DNA of 18,276 nt. Source: Acidithiobacillus sulfuriphilus (GTDB lineage Bacteria > Pseudomonadota > Gammaproteobacteria > Acidithiobacillales > Acidithiobacillaceae). The DNA is taken from contig NZ_RIZI01000134.1 in NCBI RefSeq assembly GCF_003721225.1, forward strand, positions 1 to 18,276, read 5' to 3'. The position numbers were made by a program, and so were the translations under genes. The notes beneath the pieces are model-generated. The model was not told the DNA's origin. It made no database searches and saw only the letters and a list, made by a program, of their open reading frames with translations. Shown here piece after piece: positions 12,749 to 18,276 of this stretch (its first letter is position 1; each line of letters begins with the position of its first letter).

Positions 12749-13831
12749 CTACCGATCGGGGAAGCTCACCTCTACGTGCAAATGTTCTTCCGGAGCGCTG
12801 GCGTTCGCCAAGGCCAAAGGCGGTGGAACCGCGGCACCGTTAGCAGCCGGACCATAGGGCGCGTAGGCATAGGGCTTGGCTGGAAGGACGGCCGCGATCT
12901 CCTGATAGGCGGGCGCACCGGCACCGATGGGCAAGGCCACCGTATCACGGGCGTGCACCACCTGCTCCACCCGCTGCCAGTCGATGGACGCATGCAGATC
13001 GTGCCGGGCCATATAGGTCTTGATGCCCATGACCGCCCGCTGAAGGTCCGACATGCCATCTTTGTGGTAAGCGTGCAAGGGCTTGTAGGACTGCAAATAA
13101 ATCTGTCCATCCCGCTCTCCCACCAGATTGGGCTGGTCGATGATGCGCACCGGCGTACCGGTCGGCACCAAGGGGAATAGCTGCGCCACATTCTCGGGAT
13201 ACATCTGAAAGCAGCCCTGGCTGGCGCGCATGCCCACTCCCCAGGGATGGTAGGTCCCATGAATGTAGATCCCCGACAAACCCGTCTCCATGGCCAGTTC
13301 ACCCATGGGATTCTCTGCACCCGGCGGCCAATACCACGGGATATCCATGTGGTATTTCTTTTCGAACCAGGCATGGATGTTCTTGGGGACATTCCAGGCC
13401 GGCATGCGGAATTTGGCAATGATCCGCGTCGTCGTGAGACCCTCCTTCCAGCCGGGCAGGAAAACGCCCACCGGGTAAGTAAAAACGACCGGGTCGTTGG
13501 GGGGGAAGTAATAGAGGCGGCGAGCCGGGATATCCAGCACGATCCCCGTCCACGGGCGGGGCGGCAGGACATACTGCGCAGGAATGACCACCTTGGCCGC
13601 CTGCCCCGGCAGCCAGGGATTGACCCCCGGATTGGCACCCGTCACCTGGTTGTAACCCAGGTCGTAAAAGCGCCCGATATCCAGCAAGGTATCGTCCCTG
13701 TGGGTGGTGACCGCATGCAACTGGCCGACCACATCCCCATGGGAGGGGAGCGCATAAACGCTGGCCTGAGCCGCCGCGCCCGTCAACGCCAGTACTACGC
13801 CCAGCACCCATCGCTCCGACTGTTTTTGCAT
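12749..13831 (-). CDS. Periplasmic L,D-transpeptidase (YkuD family, ErfK/YbiS type)
   Basis: L,D-transpeptidases make 3-3 peptide cross-links or attach proteins to peptidoglycan, using tetrapeptide donors. From ATG 13831 the product is 360 residues, with a signal peptide (1-23), a LysM-like segment (about 35-85) and a YkuD domain (about 96-215). Its catalytic block has H191-G-T and A-S204-Q205-G-C207 (nucleophile Cys207). The usual His two residues before Cys is Gln here. The family block DQPNLVGERDGQIYL follows. The last 80 residues or so are Ala/Pro-rich. An in-frame ATG at 13876 would put 15 unlikely residues before the signal peptide. The gene is convergent with the DUF218 gene and divergent from the next. 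Whether it mainly cross-links or anchors protein cannot be told. Confidence 0.9.
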   Translation of the reverse strand: MQKQSERWVLGVVLALTGAAAQASVYALPSHGDVVGQLHAVTTHRDDTLLDIGRFYDLGYNQVTGANPGVNPWLPGQAAKVVIPAQYVLPPRPWTGIVLDIPARRLYYFPPNDPVVFTYPVGVFLPGWKEGLTTTRIIAKFRMPAWNVPKNIHAWFEKKYHMDIPWYWPPGAENPMGELAMETGLSGIYIHGTYHPWGVGMRASQGCFQMYPENVAQLFPLVPTGTPVRIIDQPNLVGERDGQIYLQSYKPLHAYHKDGMSDLQRAVMGIKTYMARHDLHASIDWQRVEQVVHARDTVALPIGAGAPAYQEIAAVLPAKPYAYAPYGPAANGAAVPPPLALANASAPEEHLHVEVSFPDR

Positions 13832-14037
13832 ATATTCTTTCGACTCCCCAATGATGATCACGGCATGACCGGGCATTTTTTACCCACGCCCCTTCATGAT
13901 CACGTAGACCACGAAGATGCGGGAAATACTCCCCGCCACGCAAAAAAAACCGCACCCTGCCCAGCGGGCCGCCCGAGCAAAAACCCCTTCGCCAACGGCC
14001 GGATCTAGGTTCATAATAATGCAAAAAGGAGTTGGGC
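13832..14037. promoter_or_regulatory. Divergent intergenic region with paired 9-bp direct repeats
   Basis: These 206 bases separate the minus-strand L,D-transpeptidase from the plus-strand signalling operon, so promoters for both should lie here. The 9-mer ATGATCACG occurs twice in the same orientation (13854-13862 and 13896-13904), with starts 42 bases apart, about four helical turns. A weak -10-like CATAAT (14012-14017) precedes the 14038 gene without a clear -35. No ORF of note is seen. Confidence 0.45.
14026..14031 (+). promoter_or_regulatory. Ribosome binding site for the 14038 gene
   Basis: AAGGAG lies six bases before ATG 14038 and would overlap the approach to the alternative TTG at 14032. 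This makes the ATG the better start. Confidence 0.65.
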
Positions 14038-14478
14038 ATGGAATCACCCCATATCGTTTTGCTGCGGGACGCCCTAGGCGGAACCCCTATTACCCAGGCA
14101 GAGCTCAGGGACGCCCTCCAGCGCGTTGACCGCCTGCTTGCCGATCTCGCCGGAGACTTGCAGGTCTCCTTTGCAGGGCCCTTCGTCGGCCCGCCGCTGG
14201 CGCCGGAACAACACCAGTTATGCGTGCGGGAGCACCACTGGCCACGCGCCGTTCACGCCTGGGGTGTCGCCTTGTGCAGCACCCACCCTACCCATGCCGG
14301 TCGCGCCGACTGGCGCCTAGGAGGCGTCAGCCGCGATCGCCTGCCCATTGTCCTCCAGGCGCTACCCGCTTTTTTCGCCGGATACGCCCAGTCCGCTGTG
14401 GACGCGGGCATGGCCCAGCGCGGCAGTTGCCGCCGCCTCCGGGAGATCGCCCACACCCTCGCATTGACAGGCGCCTGA
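14038..14478 (+). CDS. Unrecognised 146-residue protein, first gene of the GTPase locus
   Basis: I do not recognise this family. The product is soluble, with no signal or membrane segment. It begins with a helical, Leu-rich region (about 5-40, with ITQAELRDALQRVDRLLADL), then a mixed strand region rich in Trp/His (EHHWPRAVHAWGVALC). A helix-rich end follows (DRLPIVLQALPAFFAGYAQ and a basic RRLREIAHTLAL). It has good codon quality like its neighbours and an AAGGAG ribosome site, so it is probably real. It is 67 bases upstream of the TPR membrane protein on the same strand, so it may belong to the same operon. That suggests, but does not show, a role in the same process. Confidence 0.7.
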   Translation: MESPHIVLLRDALGGTPITQAELRDALQRVDRLLADLAGDLQVSFAGPFVGPPLAPEQHQLCVREHHWPRAVHAWGVALCSTHPTHAGRADWRLGGVSRDRLPIVLQALPAFFAGYAQSAVDAGMAQRGSCRRLREIAHTLALTGA

Positions 14479-14545
14479 AAGCATCTATTTAATCGGTATA
14501 TGGCAAGAAGCATTAGGCCTCCACGATCCTTTGAGAAAATTGCCA

Positions 14546-16048
14546 ATGATGGAACTACCCCTTACCAGCCTGATCCTCATTGCCAGTCTTGTCGTTCTGG
14601 TGCTGATCGCTGTTTTGTGGAAGCTGCGTACCCAAAAAACCCCCACAGCGGCGCCTCGTCCGAAAAGTACGGTGCAAAAAGCGCCCCGCCCCAGCGCTAG
14701 CACCGGCAAAGTCCAGGAAGCCGCCCCCGCGGCAAGCGCAGCGGCACAGATCGAAGAGGTCAGCATTCTCGATGAGGTGGAAATCTATCTGTCCTATGGT
14801 CACCTGGAGCAGGCCAGCACTACCCTGCGCTGGTATGTGGATCACCATCGGGGCGACCAGGAACAGGCCCGGCGCCTACTGGAGATTTATCTCGCCCTCG
14901 CGGATGTGGACCGCTACGCCGAAATTCTCGAACGGCTTTGTGAGCACCCGGCTCATGGGGGGGTGGACTGCCGGGAGGACATCTTTGCCGGCCTGCAGAT
15001 GGATCCGCAGAATCTGCAGCTACGGGTGCTCGCCGAGGCCCTGCTCGGCATGAGTGTCGCAGCCATCGAAGCAGAACTGGCCCAACGCCGGCCCCAACGC
15101 ACCGATACCGGACCAGCCCTGGCCCATATCGCCCTTGCCGAGGCGCGGCAGAACCTGGAGCAGGCCATAGTCAACCCCGAGCCCTTTGATCTCGGCGGCA
15201 TCAACCTCAGCGGCTTCAATGCCCCCACTGACAGGGGCCAGGGCCGGGAGGCGGAATCCCCGGGGCCGACTCAGGACAACCGTCCCCTGCTCGTCGGTGA
15301 AATGTCCCTTGGGGTGCTGGATGAAGCAGAAACAACCGCGGTGGCCGGCATCATTTCCCCGCTGACCGCCGCGCGCCAGTTGCGCGCCGCAGGACAGGAC
15401 GATGTAGCCGAACGCCTTCTCCGCCGCAATCTGATCCTCGATCCCCGGAAACTGGCCCTGCATGTGGAGTTGCTGGAACTGCTCTACCACCGCCGTCAGG
15501 CCGCCACCTATGCGGAAGAACTGCTGTATCTCTATCTCACCTTGTGGGGCGCAGGCGCCGCCTTGCGCCATCGCCTCCTCCATCATGGCCAGCACCTGGG
15601 TGCACATCCCCTCTGGTCCGAACTGGACAACATCGACGGCAATGAACATCGCCTGGCGCCTCTGGCGGAGCAATATGGCCTTTACGTTCCCATCACCGCC
15701 ATCCCCATCAGTAGTCCGCCCCTGATCCTGGAGCAGATCCGGCGGGACAACGTCATCGTCACCGCGGATCATGACGACAGCATCCTCCACGAGTTCAACC
15801 AGCTACTCGATTACGGGCAAGTCGAAGAAGCCGTATCCCTGCTGGAAATGGCCACTATCGCCCAACCCGCCAATGGCGACTATTATGCTCCACTCTTGGA
15901 GATGTACGAGCGTATGGATGCCCAGGATCGCTTTTCGGACTTTATCAAGAGCGTCCTGGCAGCCGACACCCAACCAGACGAGGAAATTATGCGGCAAATG
16001 TTTGACCTCGCCGAACGGCTCCAGCGCCGCACCCGGCATGCGATTTAG
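14546..16048 (+). CDS. Membrane-anchored FimV/TPR-like protein
   Basis: The product is 500 residues from ATG 14546 (ATG 14549 is equally possible; a TTG at 14531 is also in frame). It has one N-terminal membrane helix (about 5-26), a Pro/Ala/Lys linker to about 65, then a long cytoplasmic or periplasmic helical part. Three blocks share the pattern 'YG or G, x2-3, E/D, x, A, x3, L, ~20, LLE-x-Y': DEVEIYLSYGHLEQA with LLEIYLAL; AAGQDDVAERLL with LLELLY; and LLDYGQVEEAVSLL with LLEMYERM. This resembles FimV and other TPR scaffolds that recruit pilus or polarity proteins. It lacks a visible LysM domain, unlike full FimV. It is followed by the receiver-like gene after nine bases. A scaffold role is inferred; the TPR-like fold is moderately supported. 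Confidence 0.7.
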   Translation: MMELPLTSLILIASLVVLVLIAVLWKLRTQKTPTAAPRPKSTVQKAPRPSASTGKVQEAAPAASAAAQIEEVSILDEVEIYLSYGHLEQASTTLRWYVDHHRGDQEQARRLLEIYLALADVDRYAEILERLCEHPAHGGVDCREDIFAGLQMDPQNLQLRVLAEALLGMSVAAIEAELAQRRPQRTDTGPALAHIALAEARQNLEQAIVNPEPFDLGGINLSGFNAPTDRGQGREAESPGPTQDNRPLLVGEMSLGVLDEAETTAVAGIISPLTAARQLRAAGQDDVAERLLRRNLILDPRKLALHVELLELLYHRRQAATYAEELLYLYLTLWGAGAALRHRLLHHGQHLGAHPLWSELDNIDGNEHRLAPLAEQYGLYVPITAIPISSPPLILEQIRRDNVIVTADHDDSILHEFNQLLDYGQVEEAVSLLEMATIAQPANGDYYAPLLEMYERMDAQDRFSDFIKSVLAADTQPDEEIMRQMFDLAERLQRRTRHAI

Positions 16049-16057
16049 GACAGGATC

Positions 16058-17233
16058 ATGAACCAGCCTTTTGCTATGAGTGGTGAGATTTTCGTCCGCA
16101 CGGTAGGCATGGACAGCCGCAAAGAGGCCGTCTTTCGCATGGCCTTCAAGATGTACACGCGCCGTTCCTATCGCCTACTGGAAGCGCAGGAATCCCGGGA
16201 TCCCACCTTGGCCATCATCGATGTGGATGGCCCCGAAGGGATGAATCTCGCCCATCGCTTCCGTCAGGAGCATCCGCAGTTGCGCATCCTGATTACCAGC
16301 ATCACCCCCGATGCGACCAGCGGCTTCCCCGCCCTGCAAAAACCCGTGCGGATGGAAACCTTATTTCCCGCCCTGGAGGCCTTGCTGCAAGGAGGGGCGC
16401 AAGAGTCGGCCCCCGCCGCAGCGCCTACCCCGCCGGTAGCGGGCCAAGGCAAGACGACCACCGCCACCGTCACTCCCATCCGTCCCGAACTCAGTGGACG
16501 GACGGCGGCCATACCGGAAGCCCCCGCCGTCACCCCGCCCCCGGCACAGCCTGCCGCCGCGCCGCATCCGGCGGCACCCGTTCTGCGTCCCGAAGACGTG
16601 CGTCCCTTTGATCCGGAGCATGGCTTGCTGGGCCTGCTTCTCATGGTCCGCCGGGATCAGGTGCCGGCAGTGATCGTGGAAGGCGCTCAGCGGGTCATCC
16701 TCAAGATTGATCCCATTGCCGATCAGGTGCTATCCCTGGTGGACGACGAGACGCTCAAAACGCTTGCGCAGAATCCGGCTCAACGTTTGCAAGCCCGCGC
16801 TCCGAGCAGCGCCGACATCCCCGCCAACACCCCGGTGCGCCACCTGACCTTGCAGGCCCTCCTCTGGCAGGTCGGGGCCTGGACCGCGAACGGCCGGCTG
16901 ATCAACCGCTTGCAACCCAACACCCCGGTCCAGCTCAAGCACTGGCCCAATCTCACGCGCTTATCCATGTTACCGGAGGCCCTGCGTCTGGCGGCATTCC
17001 TGGCCAGGTCGCCCGCATCACCGGTCTTGGTCGTCAAAATGCTGCGCGTCGCGCCCGCTGATCTGTTCAACTTTCTGGCCGCCTCCGAAAGCCTGGGCCT
17101 GCTGCGCTATAGCCCCATCGGCGGCACCGAGGCCAAGGCAGTGACGCCGGCGGTGGAGCCTGGAAAACAAGAAATCCCCACCGCGCGTCGCGGCTTCCTC
17201 GGCCGGCTCCTGGCGCGTATTGCCGGCCTATAG
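16058..17233 (+). CDS. Degenerate receiver-linker-unknown C-terminal domain protein
   Basis: The product is 391 residues. Residues about 10-110 resemble a response-regulator receiver. The phospho-acceptor position is kept (D55 in LAIIDVDG), a T80-S follows a strand (ILITS), and K95-P96 precedes a final helix. The acidic pair expected at the end of strand 1 is missing (FVRTVGMD), so normal Mg-dependent phosphorylation is doubtful. Residues about 112-180 are Pro/Ala/Thr-rich and probably disordered. The C-terminal part (about 185-360) is not recognised. It includes a hydrophobic LLGLLLMVRR start and a possible winged-helix segment (PEALRLAAFLARSP to SLGLLRYSP), and the tail is basic. The receiver-linker-tail layout recalls RomR of Myxococcus, but no homology is claimed. 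It lies between the TPR gene and the GTPase. Confidence 0.65.
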   Translation: MNQPFAMSGEIFVRTVGMDSRKEAVFRMAFKMYTRRSYRLLEAQESRDPTLAIIDVDGPEGMNLAHRFRQEHPQLRILITSITPDATSGFPALQKPVRMETLFPALEALLQGGAQESAPAAAPTPPVAGQGKTTTATVTPIRPELSGRTAAIPEAPAVTPPPAQPAAAPHPAAPVLRPEDVRPFDPEHGLLGLLLMVRRDQVPAVIVEGAQRVILKIDPIADQVLSLVDDETLKTLAQNPAQRLQARAPSSADIPANTPVRHLTLQALLWQVGAWTANGRLINRLQPNTPVQLKHWPNLTRLSMLPEALRLAAFLARSPASPVLVVKMLRVAPADLFNFLAASESLGLLRYSPIGGTEAKAVTPAVEPGKQEIPTARRGFLGRLLARIAGL

Positions 17234-17275
17234 CCTAGATATAGTCGCCGCGTTTTTTTCTACGGTGCGCAAAAA

Positions 17276-17281
17276 AAGGAG
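17276..17281 (+). promoter_or_regulatory. Ribosome binding site for the GTPase GTG start
   Basis: AAGGAG ends eight bases before GTG 17290 and supports that start; the next in-frame ATG is at codon 39, inside the domain. Confidence 0.75.
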
Positions 17282-17289
17282 CGCCTGCA

Positions 17290-17856
17290 GTGAGAGAAGA
17301 CAATAAAATCATTTTTACCGGCCCGGTGGGAGCCGGGAAGACCAGTGCCATCTCCGCCCTTTCGGATACGCCGATCATTGCCACGGATGCGGCTGCCTCG
17401 GACATGACACTGAACCGCAAGGGCTACACCACCGTAGCCATGGATTACGGCATCCTCAATCTCGATGCCCAGACCAAGGTCCATCTCTATGGCACCCCGG
17501 GACAGGAGCGCTTCGATTTCATGTGGGACATCCTCACCACCGGCGGCCTGGGCCTCATCCTGATGCTGGACAATACCCGGCCCAATCCCAAAAAAGACAT
17601 GCACTTCTTTCTCCATGCCTTCAAGGATTTCATTGTCGATGTACCGGTAGTGATCGGCATTTCCAAGAGCGACATCAAGGCACAACCCACGCCCGCGGAT
17701 TACGCCGATGTCCTGCCCGAGATCACGGCAGACCTGCGGATGCTCAATCCCATGCCGCCCATCTTTGAAGTGGACGGACGGCGCAAGGACGATGTAAAAA
17801 ACCTCGTCATGGCCCTGCTCTATTCCATTGATCCCGGCATTGGGGAAAACCCATGA
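17290..17856 (+). CDS. Small Ras-like GTPase (MglA/CvnD, COG2229-like)
   Basis: The product is 188 residues with one small GTPase domain and no membrane segment. G1/P-loop is GPVGAGKT (11-18). Switch I is probably near KGYTTVAMDYG (44-54). G3 is YGTPGQERFDFMWD (67-80), where the canonical Asp of DxxG is Gly68 but Gln72, matching Ras Gln61, is kept. G4 is SKSD (125-128) in place of NKxD. The GTPGQERF-FMWD block resembles CvnD-type GTPases of actinobacterial conservons, and MglA has a related TPGQ. Such GTPases are usually paired with a Roadblock protein, as seen directly downstream in an ATGA overlap. The GTG start has an AAGGAG site. A role as a molecular switch for polarity or motility is inferred. 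The GTPase assignment is strong. Confidence 0.9.
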   Translation: MREDNKIIFTGPVGAGKTSAISALSDTPIIATDAAASDMTLNRKGYTTVAMDYGILNLDAQTKVHLYGTPGQERFDFMWDILTTGGLGLILMLDNTRPNPKKDMHFFLHAFKDFIVDVPVVIGISKSDIKAQPTPADYADVLPEITADLRMLNPMPPIFEVDGRRKDDVKNLVMALLYSIDPGIGENP

Positions 17857-18276
17857 GCGTCGACTTGGCCCCGTCCACAGAACAGCTCTACGCGCAGGTG
17901 ACTCCCGCCGGGGCCTTCTATGCCGTGTCCAGCCCGGAACATGAGGGTAATCGCGCCATCCTGCTGCGCATCCTGGAAGAAGGGGGCGTGGTGCCCTTTG
18001 CCACCTCGACAGCCATGAGCTGGACCCAGAGCAATGATGCAGAAGAGGCCCTACGCAGCATTTTCCGCCTCCAGCGCCTGGGACTGGTGCGCGGCAGCAC
18101 TGCGGCACCGCTACCCGTCGAGGATCGGCTGGAAGACATTCTCCCCTCCCTCCTGGCGCGCCTCTCCGACACCAGCAAGGCGTTGCTGGCCGACGAGAAT
18201 GGGTTCTACCTGGCCGCGGCGGGTTTTCTCCATGAGGCGGCCGAAGAGCTGGCCGGCCTCTCCGCCGACCTGCTCG
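17853..18276 (+). CDS. Winged-helix-like plus Roadblock/LC7-like protein, 3'-truncated
   Basis: The frame opens at ATG 17853, overlapping the GTPase stop, and stays open to the window end, giving 141 residues. Residues about 25-80 (AILLRILEEGGVV to RLQRLGLVRG) look like a winged helix. From about 92 the pattern changes to a Roadblock/LC7 start: a helix (EDILPSLLARLS), then SKALLADENGFYLAAAGF and a helix with AEELAGLSADLL. This matches the 'L-x-A-D-x-x-G-F-x-L-A-x-x-G' strand pair of MglB-like proteins. Roadblock proteins dimerise and act as GTPase partners; MglB acts as a GAP for MglA. Tight overlap with the GTPase supports a working pair. The rest of the domain is outside the window, so the call is provisional. 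Confidence 0.7.
   Translation, partial: MSVDLAPSTEQLYAQVTPAGAFYAVSSPEHEGNRAILLRILEEGGVVPFATSTAMSWTQSNDAEEALRSIFRLQRLGLVRGSTAAPLPVEDRLEDILPSLLARLSDTSKALLADENGFYLAAAGFLHEAAEELAGLSADLL

Follow-up and report, generated by a model that had tools for sequence, protein, structure and literature searches.

Control of pilus polarity by a Ras-like GTPase is known mainly from Myxococcus, where the GTP-bound form of the small GTPase MglA promotes type IV pili via the tetratricopeptide repeat (TPR) protein SgmX (PMC7519303). In beta- and gammaproteobacteria, Group 3 MglA systems have been described in which the GTPase is accompanied by a receiver-linker protein and by one or two MglB (Roadblock) proteins (Wuichet and Sogaard-Andersen 2014, PMC4316618), and the Snodgrassella version of this mgl operon has been studied more recently (Meng 2024, PMC11112851). 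We analyzed an operon located at the end of an 18,276-nucleotide stretch of the Acidithiobacillus sulfuriphilus genome (contig NZ_RIZI01000134.1; hereafter, the window), which a preliminary description had presented as a candidate new GTPase-Roadblock system. The system is not new, given that the operon agrees with the Group 3 MglA systems described in 2014, including the Snodgrassella version studied in 2024. We read the locus, with a probability of about 0.6, as a Group 3 MglA-type GTPase switch that is associated with the membrane and acts on type IV pili via a FimV-like adaptor.

Positions 14038-18276 of the window are occupied by five co-directional, closely spaced genes on the + strand: first one for an unknown protein, then the gene of a membrane TPR protein, and after it those of a receiver-linker protein, a small GTPase, and a divergent Roadblock protein; an open reading frame (ORF) check recovered all five frames of the preliminary description together with the ATGA overlap. 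The window is the entire contig C40 of a 2.81-Mb genome (G000) and ends within the gene that starts at 17853, so that this gene is truncated. The operon resumes on contig C151 of the same genome, which shares an exact 75-base overlap with the end of the window and starts with the remainder of the truncated gene, followed by a canonical Roadblock gene encoding 120 amino acids (aa) and by two genes that we take to be glyQ and glyS by resemblance. The features of the operon are listed below, with model confidence given as the predicted local distance difference test (pLDDT).

14038..14478, + strand: first gene, unknown protein of 146 aa; the ATG at 14038 is preceded by AAAAAGGAG, a good ribosome-binding site
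14546..16048 (alternative start TTG 14531), + strand: membrane TPR protein with FimV-type TPR domains, by the FimV TPR-domain profile
14561..14635, + strand: N-terminal membrane helix of the TPR protein, residues 6-30, a helix in the predicted structure
14756..14938, + strand: first copy of the FimV-type TPR domain (domain E 3.9e-9)
15380..15502, + strand: weak middle copy of the FimV-type TPR domain (domain E 0.0084)
15794..15952, + strand: C-terminal copy of the FimV-type TPR domain, common to the short-form relatives (domain E 6.3e-8)
16058..17233, + strand: receiver-linker-output protein, 391 aa (mean pLDDT of the predicted structure 85.2; found in 97 of 101 loci)
16079..16402, + strand: receiver domain, residues 8-115, with the acceptor Asp55 at 16220-16222
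16403..16591, + strand: Pro/Ala-rich linker of low confidence, approximately residues 116-178 (pLDDT mostly 46-61 for residues 111-160, then rising)
16610..17110, + strand: folded C-terminal domain, approximately residues 185-351, with a winged-helix-like end (pLDDT 89-98 over most of its length)
17195..17227, + strand: C-terminal basic amphipathic helix, residues 380-390, a helix in the model (pLDDT about 52-77)
17290..17856, + strand: MglA-type small GTPase, 188 aa, by Pfam matches; the GTG start at 17290 is preceded by AAAAAAGGAG
17853..18276, + strand: 5' part of the gene for the divergent 212-aa Roadblock protein, in ATGA overlap with the GTPase gene
C151:3-287: residues 118-212 of the 212-aa Roadblock protein, by the contig overlap
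C151:349-708: canonical 120-aa Roadblock gene

The small GTPase that had been noted initially at 17290 carries intact GTPase motifs (GPVGAGKT, TTVAMDYG, GTPGQ, SKSD, and DGR) and matches the Pfam families ATP_bind_1 (E 4.5e-14), Roc (2.5e-6), and Ras (1.7e-4). When the family profile was compared with solved structures, MglA was retrieved at 1.4e-7, with the eukaryotic GSP1 and SEC4 scoring slightly better; the closest named relatives, among the best 80 of at least 146, are Acidithiobacillus proteins. Among the 98 relatives used for motif analysis (out of 101 loci, three paralogues below 240 bits having been dropped), the G3 motif GTPGQ is invariant, the TT[VI]A pattern is present in 92, and the G2 variant with the arginine finger of Group 1 is present in none. 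GTPGQ without an arginine finger in G2 is the combination reported for Groups 2-5, whereas Myxococcus MglA belongs to Group 1 and has an intrinsic arginine finger (PMC4316618). The definition of Group 3 further includes a G4 motif that frequently lacks lysine and a G5 motif of the DAR type (PMC4316618). The G4 lysine is present in the window protein (SKSD) and in approximately 38 of the 98 relatives, most of the others having glutamine or arginine, and G5 is DAR in 49 and DGR, the window type, in 22, with the pattern unmatched in 21. Together with an upstream protein combining a receiver, a linker, and a winged helix, one or two coupled Roadblock genes, and a beta- and gammaproteobacterial range, the GTPGQ motif and the missing G2 arginine place the operon alongside Group 3, where the winged helix in the comparison rests on the published prediction (PMC4316618); judging by motifs and neighborhood, this class assignment is well supported. 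Many related genomes (G003, G004, G006, and others) also encode a second MglA-like GTPase, with about 36-49% identity, outside the operon; no match to such a second GTPase was found in the window's own genome.

To assess conservation, we scanned named genomes with the GTPase profile and took the best 80 of at least 146 relatives, to which 20 neighborhoods from 17 relatives of the same order and the window were added, for a total of 101 loci. Longest-frame gene calling lost several loci, including the window, to antisense frames, and therefore, the counts were taken from searches with profiles that were built from these same loci. The exact order TPR-receiver-GTPase-Roadblock-Roadblock is present in 76 of the 101 loci (61/80 from named genomes and 15/20 from same-order relatives). 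Two of these loci, L039 and L054, are one and the same, and hence, the full order is found in 75 of 100 distinct loci; the alignment counts still include both. The other 25 loci include the window itself, which is cut, the paralogue loci L049-L051 that were fetched deliberately, loci at contig ends, rearranged loci, and L075 and L094, where sorting was disturbed by a long frame. Reduced operons consist of receiver, GTPase, and Roadblock genes in five loci and of receiver and GTPase genes in three. The alignments comprised 94 of the 97 receiver loci (three were dropped at less than 200 bits) and, after score and length filters, 83 rows for the TPR protein, 88 for the 212-aa Roadblock, and 87 for the 120-aa Roadblock. 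Thus, the operon is genuine and widespread beyond chance, and the unit is conserved in Acidithiobacillales and many beta- and gammaproteobacteria; among the best 80 of at least 146 GTPase-profile matches, loci were found in Acidithiobacillus, Neisseria, Snodgrassella, Methylomonas, Methylobacter, Thiothrix, Sphaerotilus, and Halothiobacillus. The linkage that the preliminary description had proposed to check is kept, and so is the parts list that it had compared with the Myxococcus polarity module, in which MglA, MglB, RomR, and SgmX represent the same part types, that is, a GTPase, a Roadblock protein, a receiver with a disordered linker, and a TPR protein. Unlike the adjoining genes here, Myxococcus mglA is located away from the genes of its response-regulator partners (PMC4316618). 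The proposed five-gene composition held for the last four genes, to which the second Roadblock gene has to be added; the first gene matches in only 19 of the 101 loci, all from Acidithiobacillales or same-order relatives, and by these profile matches is lineage-specific and lies outside the widespread core. Its 146-aa product matched no Pfam family up to E 1 and no NCBIfam family up to E 0.1.

The TPR protein provides the apparent connection to FimV. We constructed a profile from the internal cytoplasmic TPR domains of seven true FimV proteins, found among eight genomes searched, including the window's own, and compared it with 16,862 frames of the 101 loci. The profile matched 74 frames, every one of them the TPR gene (56 below 1e-5, 17 below 1e-2, and one weaker), with E 3.4e-16 for the window protein; HHalign comparison of the TPR family with the FimV family yielded 2.7e-12 and 7.8e-12 for two separate copies. 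The predicted structure consists of helical hairpins (mean pLDDT 78.5), and the invariant columns of the family (G337, L433, E434, L450, and Y454) fall in the C-terminal half. Fold searches with the TPR protein returned generic TPR and helical-repeat matches only, and accordingly, the FimV link rests on sequence profiles. In the long-form proteins, for example, those of Acidithiobacillales and Neisseriales, a membrane helix or hydrophobic stretch is present in 29 of 35. Like FimV/HubP, the window protein combines a membrane helix with the internal cytoplasmic TPR domain of FimV but, unlike FimV/HubP, it has this domain in several copies and lacks the periplasmic LysM part: no LysM domain was matched in Pfam or NCBIfam, and the membrane helix begins after no more than about five residues. 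An acidic cytoplasmic region is another feature of FimV/HubP (PMC12918733). The initial label of a FimV/TPR-like protein thus stands as to the TPR domains but not as orthology, given the absence of LysM; the NCBIfam scan gave no match to the C-terminal FimV domain (TIGR03504) either, and a separate FimV gene is present in the window's genome (G000:C63). In Thiotrichaceae-type loci, the linked FimV genes gave no match to the profile of the internal FimV domain and seem to lack that domain. Identity with SgmX was considered and set aside (16.5 bits over 98 residues for NF052243, against a cut-off of 1800); SgmX is a cytoplasmic protein of 1,060 aa (PMC7519303), whereas the window TPR protein is a predicted membrane protein.

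The receiver fold and the linker of the third protein are seen in the predicted structure, and a fold search was run on residues 8-115. The preliminary description called this receiver degenerate, which is accurate for the N-terminal acidic pair, not kept in the 94-row alignment, and inaccurate for the acceptor Asp, Ser/Thr, and Lys, which are mostly kept. The C-terminal domain has the invariant residues W270, G279, W296, and P297; comparison of the output domain with either Roadblock family, and of the last part of the protein with the N-terminal part of the 212-aa protein, was negative with HHalign. RomR shares the N-terminal receiver domain, but its C-terminus is a short Glu-rich region that is missing here and is replaced by a folded domain and a basic helix. 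The nature of this C-terminal half bears on an alternative offered by Wuichet and Sogaard-Andersen in 2014 (PMC4316618), namely, that the receiver protein acts as a response regulator that binds DNA and is controlled by the GTPase and the Roadblock proteins. Group 3 proteins have a published winged-helix prediction in their C-terminal region (PMC4316618), residues 308-351 of the window protein are modeled as three helices and one strand, and the basic tail could contact DNA as well. However, the C-terminal helix is amphipathic in addition to being basic, with a high charge coupled to a high hydrophobic moment in 83 of 94 relatives compared to 108 of 1151 ORFs, and would therefore suit membrane binding (net charge of the last 20 residues is at least +2 in 93 of the 94 receiver proteins). 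The partner, moreover, is a FimV-type TPR protein that, in its long forms, is a membrane protein. We accordingly regard a transcriptional output as unlikely.

The two Roadblock proteins differ in kind. The 120-aa protein is a canonical family member (Robl_LC7 E 1.1e-17, 64 bits against a cut-off of 23, scored on a 100% identical sister protein), and its family keeps an Asp-Gly pair in 87 of 87 sequences. In the 212-aa family, only 4 of 88 sequences have Asp in front of the conserved Gly. The product starting at 17853, described initially as Roadblock-like, matches Robl_LC7 at E 0.041 when truncated and at E 0.00041, under the Pfam cut-off, in the full-length sister protein; 18 of 27 relatives match at E of 0.1 or lower, the best at 5.9e-5, with a top score of 23.2 bits against the cut-off of 23. 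From these scores, a Roadblock fold is likely, and the protein may represent a non-canonical Roadblock partner. In Snodgrassella, the coupled pair is named mglB-1 and mglB-2, and a third mglB is unlinked (PMC11112851). The window's genome contains three more weak Roadblock-like matches (G000:C98:41671-41898, C169:2155-2445, and C33:12226-12492; E 8.8e-6 to 1.5e-4), which are possible orphan Roadblock genes.

Among solved structures, the one best matched by the 212-aa family is CvnB5 (3leq, E 0.0098), a component of the actinobacterial conservons (cvn) with which the locus had also been compared at the outset. Conservons share with the operon the GTPase-Roadblock pair, and the GTPases of Group 2 (conservons) and Group 3 have related motifs (PMC4316618), so that conservon-like membrane signaling with no role in polarity could be considered. 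However, the operon has receiver and TPR proteins in place of the CvnA histidine kinase and the DUF742 protein CvnC, and the Pfam scans, for the operon proteins that they covered, returned neither a histidine kinase nor DUF742; the comparison is weak, and we consider such a function highly improbable.

In the preferred reading, a membrane-associated switch acting on pili, the locus would work like the Myxococcus polarity module, with the small GTPase as the switch. The canonical 120-aa Roadblock would probably be the partner that activates the GTPase, and the 212-aa Roadblock, in which the Asp-Gly pair is missing, would be a co-regulator. The receiver protein would receive a signal and, seated at the membrane via its amphipathic tail, set the place or time of GTPase loading. 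As effector or adaptor, the membrane TPR protein would then connect the switch in its GTP-bound state with the type IV pilus machinery at the pole. The 2014 main text (PMC4316618) uses neither of the words TPR and tetratricopeptide, and it mentions neither FimV nor Acidithiobacillus. The FimV-type TPR partner, the amphipathic tail, the sensor linkage described below, the phospho-site pattern of the receiver, and the restriction of the Asp-Gly pair to one Roadblock are additions of the present analysis to Group 3 that are undescribed in the literature searched, supplements and figures excluded.

Proteins of the PAS, PhnD-like, ODP, protoglobin, and CZB (chemoreceptor zinc-binding) types generally sense oxygen or redox state. 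Among the 95 loci with both receiver and GTPase genes, 49 contain at least one gene of these types within 6 kb on the same strand, as a raw count (PAS 35, PhnD-like 37, ODP 10, protoglobin 6, and CZB 3); neither the window nor any of the Acidithiobacillales loci gave a match in a profile search over the same distance. In many loci (for example, L072:8630-9850), the Roadblock genes are followed by genes for a small PAS protein and for a PhnD-like binding protein; the PhnD-like protein has no obvious signal peptide and may act as a sensor in the cytoplasm. An ODP-family gene (PF19583) lies upstream on the same strand, mostly adjoining the TPR gene (L056-L062, L075, L085, and L109), and a protoglobin gene lies within or directly behind the operon in L073, L076, L080, L081, L106, and L110. 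A small stand-alone CZB protein gene adjoins the GTPase gene in L102, L103, L118, and L127, the last two of which have no Roadblock gene within the stretch seen. These linkages bring up a bolder version of the preferred reading, which we put forward tentatively, as possible rather than probable. The operon would be a self-contained, FimV-wired polarity switch, with the TPR protein as the pilus-facing adaptor, the receiver protein as a membrane-tethered factor for positioning and not a transcription factor, and the two Roadblock proteins, one canonical and one not, as a regulator in two parts. About half of the loci would have their own oxygen- or redox-type sensors that set pilus polarity directly by redox state, that is, surface energy taxis without a separate chemosensory relay.

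The sensor-type genes in 49 of the 95 loci could also speak for polar placement of flagella or chemosensory arrays by a HubP-like FimV-type protein, with swimming rather than pili as the output, given that, in other gammaproteobacteria, FimV/HubP proteins organize chemotaxis arrays as well as flagella (PMC12918733). To compare the two outputs, 31 of 204 genomes of the class were designated operon-positive by a receiver-profile match of at least 160 bits, a threshold of our choice, and 31 operon-negative genomes of similar size were picked by hand among those without such a match. FliF showed no association, with 25 of 31 positive and 25 of 31 negative genomes above the cut-off, leaving six operon-positive genomes below it, and we consider this output quite unlikely. 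The window's genome encodes PilQ and FimV, along with FliF in pieces.

Several observations weigh against the pilus reading. PilQ exceeds the cut-off in 173 of the 204 genomes (Fisher p 0.006 or 0.05 with the operon, with one operon-positive genome, G160, scoring near the cut-off) and is nearly universal in the class, so that its presence says little. Type IV pilus structural genes are absent from the recurrent neighbors seen at the loci, and a membrane helix was found in none of the 48 short-form TPR proteins, which make up 48 of 83. The winged-helix-like C-terminal domain of the receiver protein would suit a transcription factor equally well. The similarity of the 212-aa protein to Roadblock is remote, and HHalign comparison of its C-terminal half with the 120-aa family was not significant (E 0.013 and 0.03). 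In Snodgrassella, an mglB-3 allele altered how the bacteria spread on 0.5% agar and how they competed in a non-native host, while all three mglB genes were beneficial in earlier gut transposon sequencing data, according to the authors (PMC11112851); however, this allele resides in an orphan mglB outside the operon, and the literature searched contained no experiments on the GTPase, receiver, or TPR gene of the operon.

Other neighboring genes recur in some of the loci. A YkuD L,D-transpeptidase gene (Pfam 4.2e-15) is divergent beside the operon in the window (12749-13876, - strand), with a relative at the same or a nearby place in 21 of the 101 loci, including four of Neisseriaceae. Bactofilin genes, often together with FimV genes, lie beside the operon in L084, L094, L095, L097, L099, L100, L104, L107, L114, L117, and L124 (11 of the 95 loci, compared to 10 for FimV). 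A module for cell shape or division, in which the switch would position cell-wall or cytoskeletal factors, would be in line with both types of neighbors, but each link is limited to some lineages and most loci have neither, which makes this role very unlikely.

If the preferred reading, a GTPase switch acting on type IV pili, is correct, acidophiles that oxidize minerals, symbionts of bees, methanotrophs, and filamentous sulfur bacteria would share a single operon that joins an MglA-type switch with a FimV-type adaptor. A spatial output would take the place of the transcriptional one suggested in the literature, and the linked sensor genes would make the dependence of pole choice on oxygen or redox state testable. 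This type of switch is widespread and little studied, and it probably helps surface-living bacteria choose where their pili run.

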